Below are positions 17,682 to 54,114 of a DNA stretch of 64,000 bases, in pieces. Under the pieces are notes generated by a model, which did not search any database, was not told where the DNA came from, and saw only the letters and a list, made by a program, of their open reading frames with translations. Numbering within the stretch: the stretch's first letter is position 1; each line of letters starts with the position of its first letter. The translations under genes and the position numbers were made by a program. The DNA comes from Calditerrivibrio sp. (GTDB lineage Bacteria; Chrysiogenota; Deferribacteres; Deferribacterales; Calditerrivibrionaceae). The DNA lies in assembly GCA_026415135.1 (NCBI GenBank), contig JAOAHS010000009.1, forward strand, positions 1 to 64,000, in the 5' to 3' direction.

Positions 17682-18884
17682 ATGATTAGAATTCATGTGG
17701 ATGAACTTAAAATTGGTGATAAAGTTATAAAACTCGATGAAAGCTGGCTTAACACACCATTTCTTTTTCATAGATTTACAATAAAAAACTGGGACGACAT
17801 TAAAAAACTAAAAGACAACAATATCGATTATGTATACATAGAAAAAAGGTGTGAAGATAACCTTTTTAAAGAGATTATCCAAGAAAACATAGAAAAGTTA
17901 GAAGAGATCCAAAAAGAAGAATTACCCAAGCATTATATAGATTATCAAAACATCACCAAAGCCGCAGAAATTTACGAACTATCGGTAAAGATTATGAGAT
18001 CCGTTATGGATGATATAAGATCAGGTAAGCTATTTGACGATACCGGTGTAAGATTAGTCGCTGATAAAATCACAGAACTTACGATAAAAAAAGGGGATCT
18101 ATTAAGCAGTGTAGCAAAATTAAAAACCTATGATGAATATACATTCCAACACTGTGTAAACGTATCTGTGTTTGCTACCTCATTGGGCAAACTAATGAAT
18201 CTATCCCCAAAAGAACTCAAAATGTTAGCCACCAGCGCTCTTTTACATGATACAGGTAAGATGTTAGTACCAAAAGAGGTTTTGAACAAACCAGGAAAAC
18301 TTACCGATGACGAATTTAAGATCATGAAAAACCACGTAATCTTGGGTTATGATTACCTAATAAATAACGGTATGATCAAAGATAACCTAAAGATTGTTAT
18401 AGAACACCATGAACGATACGATGGTAGTGGATACCCCTATGGTTTGAAAGATCCTGATATCTCAATCTTTGGGAAAATAGGTGCTGTTGTGGACATCTAC
18501 GATGCCATAACAAGTAACAGAGTCTATCACAAAGGCATGGAACCTCCATCAGCTTTAAAAATGATGTTTAAGTGGACAGATACCCATATAAACAAAAAGG
18601 TATTTGAATTTTTCATCACCCACATAGGTATTTATCCAGTAGGAACATTAGTATTGCTTAATACCAATGAACTTGGTATAGTAGCCAAAATAACTACAAA
18701 TCCCACTGCCCCAATCGTAGCAATATTTAAAAACCCAAAAGGAGAGGATATACCTATCTATCTTCATGACCTCTCCAAAAAGAGCATATTAAACAAAAAG
18801 ATAATAGGACCAGTAAATCCAGAAAAGGTGGATATTTCCCAAGAGATATATAGCTTAATAGAAAAAATAAACGAACAAAATTAG
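17682..18884 (+). CDS. HD-GYP c-di-GMP phosphodiesterase with DUF3391 N-terminus
   Basis: A 400-residue soluble protein. Residues about 1-60 match DUF3391 (IRIHVDELKIGDKVIKL...FTIKNWDDIKKL). The HD-GYP domain spans about 145-320. Its signatures are the HD pair in HDTGKMLVPKEVL, a histidine in KNHVILGYDY, EHHERYDGSGYPYGL, and DIYDAITSNRVYHKGM. This type hydrolyses c-di-GMP to GMP. The C-terminal about 70 residues are a beta-rich tail. The TAG stop codon shares its G with the first base of the tRNA-Sec gene, so the two are transcribed together. Confidence 0.93.
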   Translation: MIRIHVDELKIGDKVIKLDESWLNTPFLFHRFTIKNWDDIKKLKDNNIDYVYIEKRCEDNLFKEIIQENIEKLEEIQKEELPKHYIDYQNITKAAEIYELSVKIMRSVMDDIRSGKLFDDTGVRLVADKITELTIKKGDLLSSVAKLKTYDEYTFQHCVNVSVFATSLGKLMNLSPKELKMLATSALLHDTGKMLVPKEVLNKPGKLTDDEFKIMKNHVILGYDYLINNGMIKDNLKIVIEHHERYDGSGYPYGLKDPDISIFGKIGAVVDIYDAITSNRVYHKGMEPPSALKMMFKWTDTHINKKVFEFFITHIGIYPVGTLVLLNTNELGIVAKITTNPTAPIVAIFKNPKGEDIPIYLHDLSKKSILNKKIIGPVNPEKVDISQEIYSLIEKINEQN

Positions 18885-18979
18885 GAGACGGTTGGGTGGC
18901 TGGTGCCCCTCGGAGGCTTCAAACCTCGACTGTTTCGCCAAAAGCGAAAGGAAGGTTCGATTCCTTCACGTCTCCGCCA
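18884..18979 (+). tRNA. selC: tRNA-Sec (UCA anticodon), CCA encoded
   Basis: The acceptor strands GGAGACG and CGTCTCC pair over 7 bp. The eighth pair that is usual in tRNA-Sec would be G-A here. The anticodon loop is CTTCAAA (anticodon TCA) on a GAGG/CCTC stem. A long variable arm has TTTCGC/GCGAAA closed by CAAAA, and the T arm is GAAGG-TTCGATT-CCTTC. The discriminator is G (18976), followed by CCA at 18977-18979. Length is about 93 nt before CCA. The extra-long variable arm with TCA anticodon is diagnostic of selenocysteine tRNA and says the organism decodes UGA as Sec. The 5' G overlaps the stop of the HD-GYP gene, and one base separates CCA from the stop of the convergent gene. Confidence 0.95.
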
Positions 18980-29824: not shown

Positions 29825-29831
29825 CATTTTA

Positions 29832-29934
29832 CCTTATCAAGAGTGGTTGAGGGACGGGCCCTATGACACCACAGCAACCGGTTTCCAATTTGGAAACGAC
29901 AGGTGCTAATTCCCGCCGTAATGGATAGATAAGG
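29832..29934 (+). promoter_or_regulatory. SAM-I (S-box) riboswitch
   Basis: P1 pairs CTTATC (29833-29838) with GATAAG (29928-29933). The conserved core motifs are in order: AAGAGTGGTTGAGGGAC, GGGCCCTATGACACC, GCAACC, a variable P3 hairpin (GGTTTCC/GGAAAC), then AGGTGCTAATTCC. These match the S-box consensus. With SAM bound the terminator at 29951-29983 forms and the downstream genes are switched off. When SAM is low, the GGCT sequence after P1 can pair with AGCC at the terminator foot to give an antiterminator. Confidence 0.93.
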
Positions 29935-29950
29935 CTATGATGAATATCAC

Positions 29951-51000: not shown

Positions 51001-51273
51001 GTTATCCTTACCCTTCAAGCGGAATTCCACAGTGAAACTATTTTTTTCTTGCAGTTGCTCAAACAAAGACTGCTCAACACCTTTTAAATCATCAGGATGG
51101 ACCAATGAGGCCCATACATCGTAGCTTATAGGAAATTCTTTTGGAGCATAGCCTAACATAATATAAGCATAATCGGACCAATAAGCCTCACCTGTTTTTA
51201 CATCCCATAACCACAAACCGATATTACCATTTTCCAAAGCATTAAATATGGATTCCAAATTAGGTGTATTCAT
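48010..51273 (-). CDS. PAS-rich hybrid histidine kinase with HPt
   Basis: A 1087-residue soluble kinase. Three PAS domains (about 10-125, 140-255, 265-385; two with HPDD motifs) precede a kinase core with MSHEIRTPLNGIIGIAQIL, an NLLGNAIKF N-box, and G boxes (DTGIGMSQ, GTGLGLSI). A receiver-like domain (about 635-750) keeps the fold but has glutamate where the acceptor aspartate should be (IIFLEYKP). A real receiver follows (about 770-890; aspartate in IIFMDIQMPNMDG). A C-terminal HPt domain has its histidine in IHKHKGAAGN. This gives a complete phosphorelay in one chain. The ATG lies 6 nt after a TATAAT, with no ribosome site. Confidence 0.92.
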   Translation of the reverse strand: MNTPNLESIFNALENGNIGLWLWDVKTGEAYWSDYAYIMLGYAPKEFPISYDVWASLVHPDDLKGVEQSLFEQLQEKNSFTVEFRLKGKDNTYRWIRGSGKVFKFDENGQYHLVSGVHIDITEKKLVELELEEKLSLLQEAEKIASIGSWDLDIINNKLTWSDEIFVIFEVDKKHFGASYDAFISFVHPDDREKVNTAYWNSVKNKTDYVVEHRLLMPDGRVKYVIERGKTFYDSDGKPIRSVGTVQDITEKVILEQSVKEQEKIFRSIFDNATVGIVFGDLSGNILLANSYFCDLVGYSLEELKNISVAELTFPPDFEQEKKLMRDLLSGNINSYRIEKKYVKKDGSLVWVDLNVTALKDDYNNIKNLIAVIININDKKLAETELIIAKEMADRANNAKTVFLANMSHEIRTPLNGIIGIAQILMSEKLSPLIKDYVNHLHVASLHLLDLINDILDFSKIEAGELKLNFEEFSLKDLVNEIIKVLYYRAKDKNIDLTVFIDPHVPYNLIGDPFRLKQILTNLLGNAIKFTEKGYVSLEIFCSDVNETQTKIYFKVKDTGIGMSQEQLSKLFTPFYQGDLTISKKYGGTGLGLSIVKKIVDALGGEIYVDSELNRGSVFTVALNFKKVDLEESNLKKQLSNLKIAVLDTKTIFVKNVVDILRSLNMEAEYIDFESIDITFKERFDIIFLEYKPEYIEKIKDILNQFYPQKVLLLSDISSQEIKRILDKNVIVIEKPFLPSDIYNAIVELFYKEDKTVSPSLMANIDTANIKALIVEDNPVNQIVLHKMLSQLNIAADIANDGAEAIEMAKNKDYSIIFMDIQMPNMDGYETTRMIRMLPKYIDVPIVAVSAHAFKTDADKSLEAGMNDHLIKPVSLNDLLNALIKWVPLSCKIKKEEEVSGFKIPFLDVEDLYSRGGRLEDIRPLIKIFVEEVEKSLPTIKACLERDEVDILQKEIHKHKGAAGNLSLIEIHKNLQEIDKRLKEKIPPSLYMELFEKFFNQIDMLKSFNDFTKDTFLEMDHDAINDDELITLIQLLDSNNLKAIDKFTHIKNGIVSNYPELVKEIEKCINNLEFKKASDIIKKMLKV

Positions 51274-51319: not shown

Positions 51320-51460
51320 TTATTTTTTATCACTTTTATCTTTTTTTGTATTTCCGTATCGATCCTCGATACTACATCCTGAGCTGGCTCAGCCACCCTT
51401 AAAGAAACCCATAAAAACTATAAGCACTACAAAAATTATCAATCCTAAATACTCACCCAA
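51320..51460 (-). CDS. Candidate small membrane selenoprotein (in-frame UGA)
   Basis: A 46-codon gene read through one TGA (51389-51391), which ordinary calling misses. It starts at TTG 51460 behind AGGAG (51467-51471, 6-nt spacing) and ends at TAA 51320. Residues about 5-20 are one hydrophobic helix (YLGLIIFVVLIVFMGFF), then KGGU-ASSGCS with selenocysteine at 24 and cysteine at 29, then a charged tail (IEDRYGNTKKDKSDKK). The reading frame after the UGA stays open and has normal coding character. A hairpin at 51356-51372 fits a bacterial SECIS. It lies 29 bp after alaS on the same strand. I do not recognise the family; a membrane-attached Sec/Cys redox role is inference. The alternative is a 23-residue peptide ending at TGA. 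Confidence 0.68.
51356..51372 (-). promoter_or_regulatory. Candidate bacterial SECIS hairpin
   Basis: On the minus strand GTATCGA and TCGATAC form a perfect 7-bp stem closing a GGA loop. The loop begins 24 nt after the UGA, and its first base is G. Bacterial SECIS elements need a G in the first two loop bases and about 16-37 nt between UGA and loop, so both rules hold. A second small hairpin, CTGAG/CTCAG, overlaps the UGA itself. Confidence 0.68.
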
Positions 51461-51489
51461 TGCTATCTCCTAAAAAATAGTTTATACTA

Positions 51490-54114
51490 TTATTGGCTAG
51501 TTATAAAATTTTTCAAATGGTTTATAGCTTCATCCAATTTAGATATATCCTTACCACCTGCCTGTGCAAAATCTGCTCGACCTCCACCACCGCCACCAGT
51601 TATCTTAGTGGCTTCCTTCACCAAGATATTAGCAGATAATTTAGCTGTAAGATCTTTGGTTACTCCACATAAAAATGTCAGTTTTTCACCATTTATTACA
51701 GGGATAAAAATTACCCCAGACTTTATTTTATTTTTGATATTATCTATCAGTTGCCTTACTGTTTCAAGATCGTCGGCATTTATTTTAAATGTGACAAATC
51801 TTATGCCATTTATATCAGAAGAATATTTATCCACTTCACCTAAAAAGCCCATTATATCTTTAGTCTTTATCTCATCCAGTTCCCTTTTTAGGGCTCTATT
51901 TTCATCTATGAGTTCCTGAATCTTGGTACTAATCAAATCTGTATTGATCTTGAGAAGAGAAGAAGCCGTATCCAAAATATTATATATCCTTGTCACCTCA
52001 TCGAAAGCCCTAATCCCAGTTACAGCCTCTATCCTCCTAATCCCAGCAGCAACACTTGTCTCAGATATAATCTTAAAAAAACCGATCTCCCCTGTCTGCC
52101 TAACATGACAACCACCACACAACTCTTTTGAAAAACCAAGTACCTCCACAACCCTCACAACCTTATCATATTTCTCTCCAAAAAGAGCCATAGCTCCTGA
52201 CCTGATGGCATCATCTATAGACATATACTCTTTTTTTACAATAGAATTTTTTATTATTTCTGAATTTACAATCCTTTCGATTTCATATATATTCTCTCTA
52301 CTCAAACCCTCAAAATGACTGAAATCAAACCTTAGCTTCTCATCATTTACAAGGGAACCAGCCTGACGAACATGATCTCCTAAAACCATCTGTAGTGCTC
52401 TGTGGAGTAAATGGGTAGCGGTATGATTTCTCGCCGTAGCAAACCTCTTCTGCGTATCTATATTAGCAACAACTACATCATTTAACTTAAGAAAACCCTT
52501 CCTAATAGTAGCTTTATGCACTATAATTCCTGCTATTTTTTTTGTATCACGGACCGTTGCCAGTGCCTGCCCATTGGTCAAGGTTCCTGTATCTCCCATT
52601 TGACCACCACCTTCAGGATAAAAAGGTGTTTCATTTAAAACAATATCCACCTCTTCACCTTCTACAGCACTTTCCACTTCTTGTTCACCACGAATAATAG
52701 CAATAATACTACCATCTAGAGAAAAATCTTCATAGCCTTTGAACTCCGTCTTTAGATGCGATAATCTTTTGTATATCTCTGGTATCCTCTCCTCACCACT
52801 TCCAGCCCAATTCTTTTTTGCCCTTTCCTGCTGAATTGTCATCTCTTTTTCAAATCCGATCATATCAAGCTTATAACCATAATCCTCAGCAATATCTTGT
52901 AAAAGATCTGTAGGAAAACCATAGGTATCATATAATCTAAAAATATCTACACCTGATATCTCTTTCGTATCCCTATTTTTCTCCATAATATCTTCAATCA
53001 TTTTAAGGCCAACATCCAGAGTCCTCGAAAACCTCTTCTCCTCAAAAGCCACCATTTTAGAGATATAATCCTTTTTGTCCTTTAGCTCTATATAATGATC
53101 CCCCATAAAATCCACAACATATTCACAAACCCTATAGAAAAATGAATCATCAAACCCAAGCATTTTTCCATGTCTCATCGCCCTTCTCATTATCCTTCTT
53201 AACACATAGCCTCTACCTTCATTAGAAGGTATAACACCATCTGCTATGAGAAAGGTCGTGGATCTACTGTGATCAGCTATCACCCTAAAACTCACATCAT
53301 CCTTTTCACTGACCCCATACTTTTTATTTGCCAGATCAGCAGTAAAATCTATGATAGGTTTTATGAGATCAGTATCGTAGTTTGAGGTCTTTCCTTGGCA
53401 CACAGCTGTGATCCTCTCTAACCCCATACCTGTATCTATACTCGGTTTTGGCAGGGGAGTGAGTTTACCATCAAAGGATCTATCAAACTGCATAAACACC
53501 AAGTTCCACAGCTCAAGATGCCTATCACAATCACAGTCTGGATTGCAATCAGGTCTCTTACACCCAGCATCAGGCCCCAAATCTATATGTATTTCCGAGC
53601 ATGGTCCACAAGGTCCAGTATCCCCCATAGCCCAAAAATTATCCTTTTCCCCTCGTCTTAGTATCTTTTCAGTGGGGACACCAATTACCTCATTCCAGAT
53701 TTTAAATGCTTCCTCATCATCGTAGTAAATGGAAACAAACAGCTTTTCCTTGGGAAGCCCCAACTCCACTGTGAGAAACTCCCAAGCATACTCTATGGCT
53801 TCTTTTTTGAAGTAATCCCCAAAAGAAAAATTACCGAGCATTTCAAAAAAGGTATGGTGTCTCGCAGTCCTGCCTACATTTTCCAGATCGTTGTGTTTCC
53901 CTCCTGCTCTAACAACCTTTTGACATGTTACTGCTTTGTTATAGTCCCTTTTTTCAAGGCCTAAAAAAAGATCTTTAAACTGATTCATACCTGCATTGGT
54001 AAATAAAAGAGTGGGATCATTGTGGGGAACCAGCGATGAAGAATCCACTACTCTATGACCATGCTTTTCAAAATACTTCAAAAACCTTTCCCTTATCTCT
54101 TTTCCAGATACCAT
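51490..54114 (-). CDS. alaS: Alanyl-tRNA synthetase
   Basis: An 874-residue class II synthetase. The catalytic domain has AGGKHNDLENVGRTARHHTFFEMLGNFSFGDYFK and RVIADHSRSTTFLIADG. The editing domain has HTATHLLH and CGGCHVRQTGEIG. The C-terminal part has GGGGGGRADFAQAGG. Length and order match the family. A GGAG ribosome site precedes the ATG. It lies 9 bp downstream of the HNH gene and shares its promoter. Confidence 0.97.
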   Translation of the reverse strand: MVSGKEIRERFLKYFEKHGHRVVDSSSLVPHNDPTLLFTNAGMNQFKDLFLGLEKRDYNKAVTCQKVVRAGGKHNDLENVGRTARHHTFFEMLGNFSFGDYFKKEAIEYAWEFLTVELGLPKEKLFVSIYYDDEEAFKIWNEVIGVPTEKILRRGEKDNFWAMGDTGPCGPCSEIHIDLGPDAGCKRPDCNPDCDCDRHLELWNLVFMQFDRSFDGKLTPLPKPSIDTGMGLERITAVCQGKTSNYDTDLIKPIIDFTADLANKKYGVSEKDDVSFRVIADHSRSTTFLIADGVIPSNEGRGYVLRRIMRRAMRHGKMLGFDDSFFYRVCEYVVDFMGDHYIELKDKKDYISKMVAFEEKRFSRTLDVGLKMIEDIMEKNRDTKEISGVDIFRLYDTYGFPTDLLQDIAEDYGYKLDMIGFEKEMTIQQERAKKNWAGSGEERIPEIYKRLSHLKTEFKGYEDFSLDGSIIAIIRGEQEVESAVEGEEVDIVLNETPFYPEGGGQMGDTGTLTNGQALATVRDTKKIAGIIVHKATIRKGFLKLNDVVVANIDTQKRFATARNHTATHLLHRALQMVLGDHVRQAGSLVNDEKLRFDFSHFEGLSRENIYEIERIVNSEIIKNSIVKKEYMSIDDAIRSGAMALFGEKYDKVVRVVEVLGFSKELCGGCHVRQTGEIGFFKIISETSVAAGIRRIEAVTGIRAFDEVTRIYNILDTASSLLKINTDLISTKIQELIDENRALKRELDEIKTKDIMGFLGEVDKYSSDINGIRFVTFKINADDLETVRQLIDNIKNKIKSGVIFIPVINGEKLTFLCGVTKDLTAKLSANILVKEATKITGGGGGGRADFAQAGGKDISKLDEAINHLKNFITSQ

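Follow-up and report, generated by a model that had tools for sequence, protein, structure and literature searches.

Within the window (the whole 64,000-nucleotide stretch of the Calditerrivibrio sp. contig JAOAHS010000009.1 that was analysed), the 216-bp gap between alaS and the next gene, which starts at 51273, holds a small open frame that is interrupted only by a TGA at codon 24. The question raised by this locus is whether that TGA ends a short peptide or is read as selenocysteine (Sec), as a first-pass annotation made from the letters had proposed. We conclude that the TGA is very probably read as Sec, and comparative evidence makes us highly confident that the gene at 51460-51320 on the minus strand encodes a Sec-containing microprotein of a family that lies outside current catalogues.

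The features on which the first-pass annotation had built its proposal, namely the gap after alaS, the 46-codon frame with its sole break, the AGGAG 6 nt ahead of a TTG start, a perfect 7-bp hairpin with a G-first loop 24 nt after the UGA, and a tRNA-Sec in the window, were all confirmed (Table 1). The translated protein is MGEYLGLIIFVVLIVFMGFFKGGUASSGCSIEDRYGNTKKDKSDKK, with the TTG start read as M, and contains the KGGU-ASSGC motif that had been pointed out, in which Sec and Cys form a Sec-x4-Cys pair. The single membrane helix predicted in that annotation was recovered by hydropathy and by AlphaFold, which modelled a helix at residues 2-20 (pLDDT 83-87) and a weak helix at residues 33-43. 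AGGAG-like sites also precede the start in most relatives of the window gene, and alaS is likewise the upstream gene in the genus relatives L002 and L003. Elsewhere in the window, the SAM riboswitch listed in Table 1 is ordinary.

Table 1. Coordinates of the candidate selenoprotein gene, its signals and associated genes (window positions unless a contig or locus is given).
Feature	Position	Strand	Remark
Candidate selenoprotein gene, 46 codons + TAA	51320..51460	minus	TTG start at 51460, stop TAA 51322-51320; frame kept in 20 further Deferribacterales genomes
Shine-Dalgarno AGGAG	51467..51471	minus	6-nt gap to TTG start
In-frame TGA, predicted Sec codon (codon/residue 24)	51389..51391	minus	same column in 21/21 Deferribacterales
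SECIS-like hairpin GTATCGA-GGA-TCGATAC	51356..51372	minus	23 nt separate TGA and loop; first loop G is the 24th nucleotide after UGA
Conserved Cys (residue 29), Sec-x4-Cys	51374..51376	minus	invariant in alignments A1 and A4
Single transmembrane helix, residues 4-20	51401..51451	minus	hydropathy
alaS, upstream neighbour on same strand	51490..54114	minus	stop ends at 51490
tRNA-Sec gene (selC)	18884..18979	plus	ARAGORN; Rfam RF01852, 57.9 bits
SAM riboswitch	29831..29935	plus
SelD of window genome, selenoprotein (SHLSKAAGU)	G000:C2:15157-16077 (L147)	minus
Secreted-protein genes upstream of the selenoprotein gene	L032:3976-5985; L033:3937-5967; L034:3896-5986

In a search of 147 genomes, the gene was found in 21 Deferribacterales genomes of five families, including the window genome (G000). 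The frame, the hairpin and a single TGA at one column were kept in all 21, and this conservation across the order rules out a chance ORF. Common to the encoded proteins are the helix, a Gly-rich segment preceding U, a 4- or 6-residue spacer, and CS[IV]EDRY. The codons for SIEDRY are AGT ATC GAG GAT CGA TAC in every genome apart from one ATC-to-GTC change, which retains a G-U pair, while the flanking codons vary freely across the 21 genomes, indicating that this stretch is held at the RNA as well as the protein level. Among their synonyms in seven window genes, these codons account for 20% (AGT), 21% (ATC), 41% (GAG), 88% (GAT), 3% (CGA), and 22% (TAC). The gene was not found in three Deferribacterales that have tRNA-Sec (G006, G008, and G013). 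Its neighbour in this order is alaS (in the window genus) or the gene of a secreted protein that is about 670-700 aa long. This protein carries a weak carboxypeptidase-regulatory-like domain; its gene immediately precedes the selenoprotein gene, sometimes overlapping it, in four families of Deferribacterales.

Outside the order, a single distant genome was picked up with the Deferribacterales profile (G286, whose protein reads U-MSSA-CSVEDR), and the gene with its TGA was present in four of four examined genomes of that phylum. A profile built from these four sequences retrieved a further 29 genomes, most of them from different families, and a 25-row profile matched in 92 of the 396 sampled genomes of the phylum of G405. 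In total, the family occurs in at least about 145 genomes from about 63 families and several phyla, with TGA at the Sec position in 143; this tally was summed over result tables, about 100 members being read in sequence and the rest by automated stop count. Nine matches had ended just before the TGA column, and on re-reading the TGA was present in all nine. The first-pass annotation had named homologues with Sec or Cys at this position as a check on its proposal, and both kinds exist, although Cys occurs only once, in G617, where the codon is TGT. That gene has no SECIS-like hairpin, and tRNA-Sec was not detected in its genome, which is 99% complete; G617 is thus a natural control, having Cys and lacking both the hairpin and a detectable tRNA-Sec. 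The other exception, G296, has CGA (Arg); its copy is degenerate, its tail is short, and no SECIS-like hairpin occurs at the corresponding site.

Members of the family are mostly about 46-75 residues long, and the wider consensus is a helix with W/Y followed by [IV]LP[KR][LM]G[VI]xT-U-[MLIA]SxxC. The Sec-Cys spacing is variable in some members, and the Cys is missing in a few (the G269 fusion and G792). G405 carries two copies of the gene (L096/L126 and L135), and L082 (G321) is extended at the C terminus, with about 85 residues beyond Sec-x4-Cys. In one subgroup (L181-L188, L194, L196, and L197), the TGA is followed by U-[AGS]-V-[PR]-x-P, and a Cys often lies beyond it; we regard this pattern as a distinct predicted Sec motif inside the family. 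Weak TGA matches in G086 (L023), G007, G105, and G031 had E > 0.01 and were not counted as members. Of these, L023 (E 0.014) reads KKAKUTSGCALTGC with a TGA in a genome with tRNA-Sec and is overlapped by a long antisense ORF, and the translation of a G007 match from a separate search (L064) is without family features. The weak matches L061 and L062 were chance-like.

To characterize the predicted SECIS element, we took the best G-first hairpin lying 16-37 nt from the TGA in 33 diverse members, unselected for pairing, and compared it with dinucleotide shuffles, obtaining a combined Fisher p of 8e-29. The loops begin mostly 17-24 nt after the TGA; the second G405 copy, which is without a clear hairpin (p 0.9), and G170, in which it is weak (p 0.1), were exceptions. 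In the unfiltered alignment, 72% of cells were paired, compared with 30-45% when the alignment was slid. In a fixed-register subset of 26 sequences, two-sided changes were seen at all 7 pairs, and 96.7% of cells were paired versus 25-42% when slid, a value biased upward because these sequences had been picked for pairing. The SECIS-like hairpin thus covaries, its stem being maintained in position by compensatory changes. Within the window itself, only 3 of 2,454 TGA triplets on both strands have, at SECIS distance, a 7-bp hairpin whose loop starts with G. Because the FDH-like genes found in the window genome have no in-frame TGA, SelD was used as the SECIS comparator: its hairpin after the TGA, taagccc-GGA-gggctta, has the same architecture as that of the window gene, a 7-bp stem with a GGA loop. 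The family thus shares with bacterial selenoproteins that have an in-coding bSECIS (such as SelD and FdhA) the in-frame UGA, the G-first loop 16-37 nt downstream, and tRNA-Sec, and differs from them in its smaller size, its one helix, the lack of a recognised domain, and the near absence of Cys homologues.

The gene also tracks the Sec machinery. In the first 147 genomes, where tRNA-Sec was called at 57 bits or more, tRNA-Sec was present in 30 of 32 carriers versus 32 of 115 non-carriers (p 7e-12, a certainty inflated by kinship among the genomes), and within Deferribacterales in 20 of 21 carriers versus 3 of 25 non-carriers. Among a further 22 carriers, it was present in 20, counting G385 and G148 with the rest. 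In the phylum of G405, the figures were 36 of 40 carriers versus 25 of 40 non-carriers (p 0.004, kinship again inflating the certainty). The co-occurrence thus comes out in favour of the proposed selenoprotein. tRNA-Sec went undetected in six carriers of the TGA form (G036, G075, G313, G446, G460, and G615), possibly reflecting assembly gaps or divergent tRNAs. In the window genome, SelD is present alongside tRNA-Sec; a scan of six genes flanking tRNA-Sec in the window showed neither SelA nor SelB.

These comparisons bear on how the TGA is read. If it were a true stop, the gene would yield a membrane peptide of 23-30 residues, and the region downstream would be only an RNA element resembling an attenuator or terminator; the TGA is able to terminate, the hairpin is conserved at the nucleotide level, and recoding in bacteria is partial according to PMC4513850. 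We consider a true stop very improbable, since the protein sequence downstream is itself conserved (U-[MLIA]-x3-C and CSIEDR) and codons outside the hairpin vary, and since the residue at position +1 varies among Met, Ile, Leu, Val, and Ala, including codons that are not start codons. In G127 and G269, moreover, the frame passes the TGA into a thioredoxin domain (WCGPC and WCAPC), where a separate downstream thioredoxin start is possible. The Cys replacement in G617, made without a stop, and the dependence on tRNA-Sec argue in the same direction. A reading of the TGA as some residue other than Sec, through a reassigned code, near-cognate readthrough or otherwise, might draw on the few carriers without detected tRNA-Sec and is just as improbable: TGA is an ordinary stop in the window, closing 12 of the 35 ORFs that are 250 aa or longer, so the code has not been reassigned; the SECIS matches in form that of SelD, a known selenoprotein of this genome; tRNA-Sec co-occurs with the gene; and the replacement observed in a full-length protein is Cys. 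UGA recoding is thus strongly supported by the comparative sequence data: the UGA at codon 24 would be decoded as Sec by tRNA-Sec through the in-coding SECIS hairpin just downstream, and the first-pass proposal of a small single-helix membrane selenoprotein is supported.

What the protein does can be approached through its topology and gene neighbours. The charged tail noted in the first-pass annotation is a feature of the family: in 24 proteins, only 2 Lys and Arg residues lie before the helix, compared with 70 within 20 residues after it. According to the positive-inside rule, the positively charged side of a membrane helix is cytoplasmic, which places the Sec side in the cytoplasm. The predicted arrangement is therefore one N-out/C-in helix followed directly by a cytoplasmic Sec-x4-Cys pair and the charged tail. 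Such a protein would most likely be a membrane-tethered selenol/thiol redox module. At the membrane face, its Sec would attack a sulfur substrate that is oxidised or persulfidic (or a metalloid), and Cys would resolve the Sec adduct into a selenenylsulfide. Re-reduction of the module would then fall to cytosolic thioredoxin or, in certain species, to a CoA-disulfide-reductase/rhodanese flavoprotein. Neighbours were counted as similarity clusters within about 3 kb in phyla other than that of the Deferribacterales, and the numbers are raw, with no background comparison. FmdB zinc ribbons accompany the gene in 13 genomes, usually immediately downstream; thioredoxin-like proteins do so in about 10, two of these being the fusions; DUF302 occurs near 9; YgaP-like TM proteins near 8; Usp near 6; rhodanese or CoA-disulfide-reductase/rhodanese near 5; and OsmC near 3. 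Both the Sec form in G813 and the Cys form in G617 lie 3' of a CoA-disulfide-reductase-like flavoprotein, and a rhodanese domain was confirmed in that of G813. These neighbours and fusions suggest that the stress handled involves thiols, persulfides or metalloids and that thioredoxin is the reductant. As no thioredoxin occurs at the Deferribacterales loci, this functional interpretation relies on evidence from other phyla.

The neighbourhoods also include RND permeases (9 genomes) and ArsR/SmtB regulators (about 10), which would suit a metal- or metalloid-binding peptide that uses Sec and Cys as ligands and passes Cu, Hg or As to RND pumps under ArsR/SmtB control; metal-linked selenoproteins, such as mercuric transport protein and E1-E2 ATPase, are known (PMC13188914). 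This role appears possible but unlikely, given the two thioredoxin fusions, the thioredoxin genes directly downstream in G286 and G386, and the CoA-disulfide reductase, rhodanese, OsmC, and DUF302 neighbours, which suggest redox chemistry rather than metal alone. The ligands are also few, one Sec and one Cys, and the RND protein of G385 scores best as a multidrug type. That thioredoxin is the partner and thiol or persulfide redox the chemistry is, in our estimate, an even call. The chances are similarly balanced that the single-helix selenomicroprotein family would act as a membrane-bound selenol partner of thioredoxin in sulfur/persulfide or metalloid stress.

The first-pass annotation could not name a family for this protein, and neither could we. 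The window protein matched nothing in Pfam up to an E of 10 and nothing in NCBIfam 20.0 (2026), which includes models for many of the families in a 2026 inventory, and its relatives had no Pfam or NCBIfam match above the curated cut-off. The FeoB-associated Cys-rich membrane protein (PF12669) is also small, with an N-terminal helix and then a Gly/Cys-rich stretch, and is a look-alike by description; its profile matched neither the window protein nor the relatives (E up to 1 for the latter). No plasmid or PDB match was found, and no description was found in the open-access literature, subscription papers and preprints lying outside the scope of the search. A paper on fmdB with a selenoprotein (PMC4807772) proved unrelated, as it concerns formylmethanofuran dehydrogenase. 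The 2026 inventory lists 119 prokaryotic selenoprotein families, including TsoA, TsoB (UxxxxU), KCU-star, and the small DW/OS_HP3 proteins (PMC13188914), and comparison by name, domain, and motif gave no fitting family. Those families are alike as candidate redox selenoproteins; TsoB has a rhodanese domain, and, judged from the listed names, domains, and motifs, none is a stand-alone single-helix Sec-x4-Cys protein. None of the new families of deep-Sep fits either (PMC12013277). Thioredoxin-like selenoproteins (UxxC) are linked to the family by the thioredoxin that several genomes encode next to it or fused to it, whereas the Sec module itself is without a thioredoxin fold and has Sec beside a membrane helix, four residues from Cys. 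The mechanism of Sec insertion is a known one; the novelty, judged from the sources compared, lies in the protein family.

Almost all selenoproteins have Cys homologues (PMC9312934), and their near absence here may explain why the family was missed. Selenoprotein catalogues have been built largely on Cys/Sec pairs and on genes of annotatable size, and this family fails both filters yet occurs in about 145 genomes, suggesting that bacterial selenoproteomes are probably undercounted. If the assignment is true, the family may be among the commoner selenoproteins in some phyla, as its frequency in the phylum of G405 suggests. It would represent a putative Sec-Cys redox unit in minimal, membrane-anchored form, with naturally occurring fusions to thioredoxin. 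The reason for keeping Sec is directly testable, because G617 naturally carries Cys in its place and has no detected tRNA-Sec.
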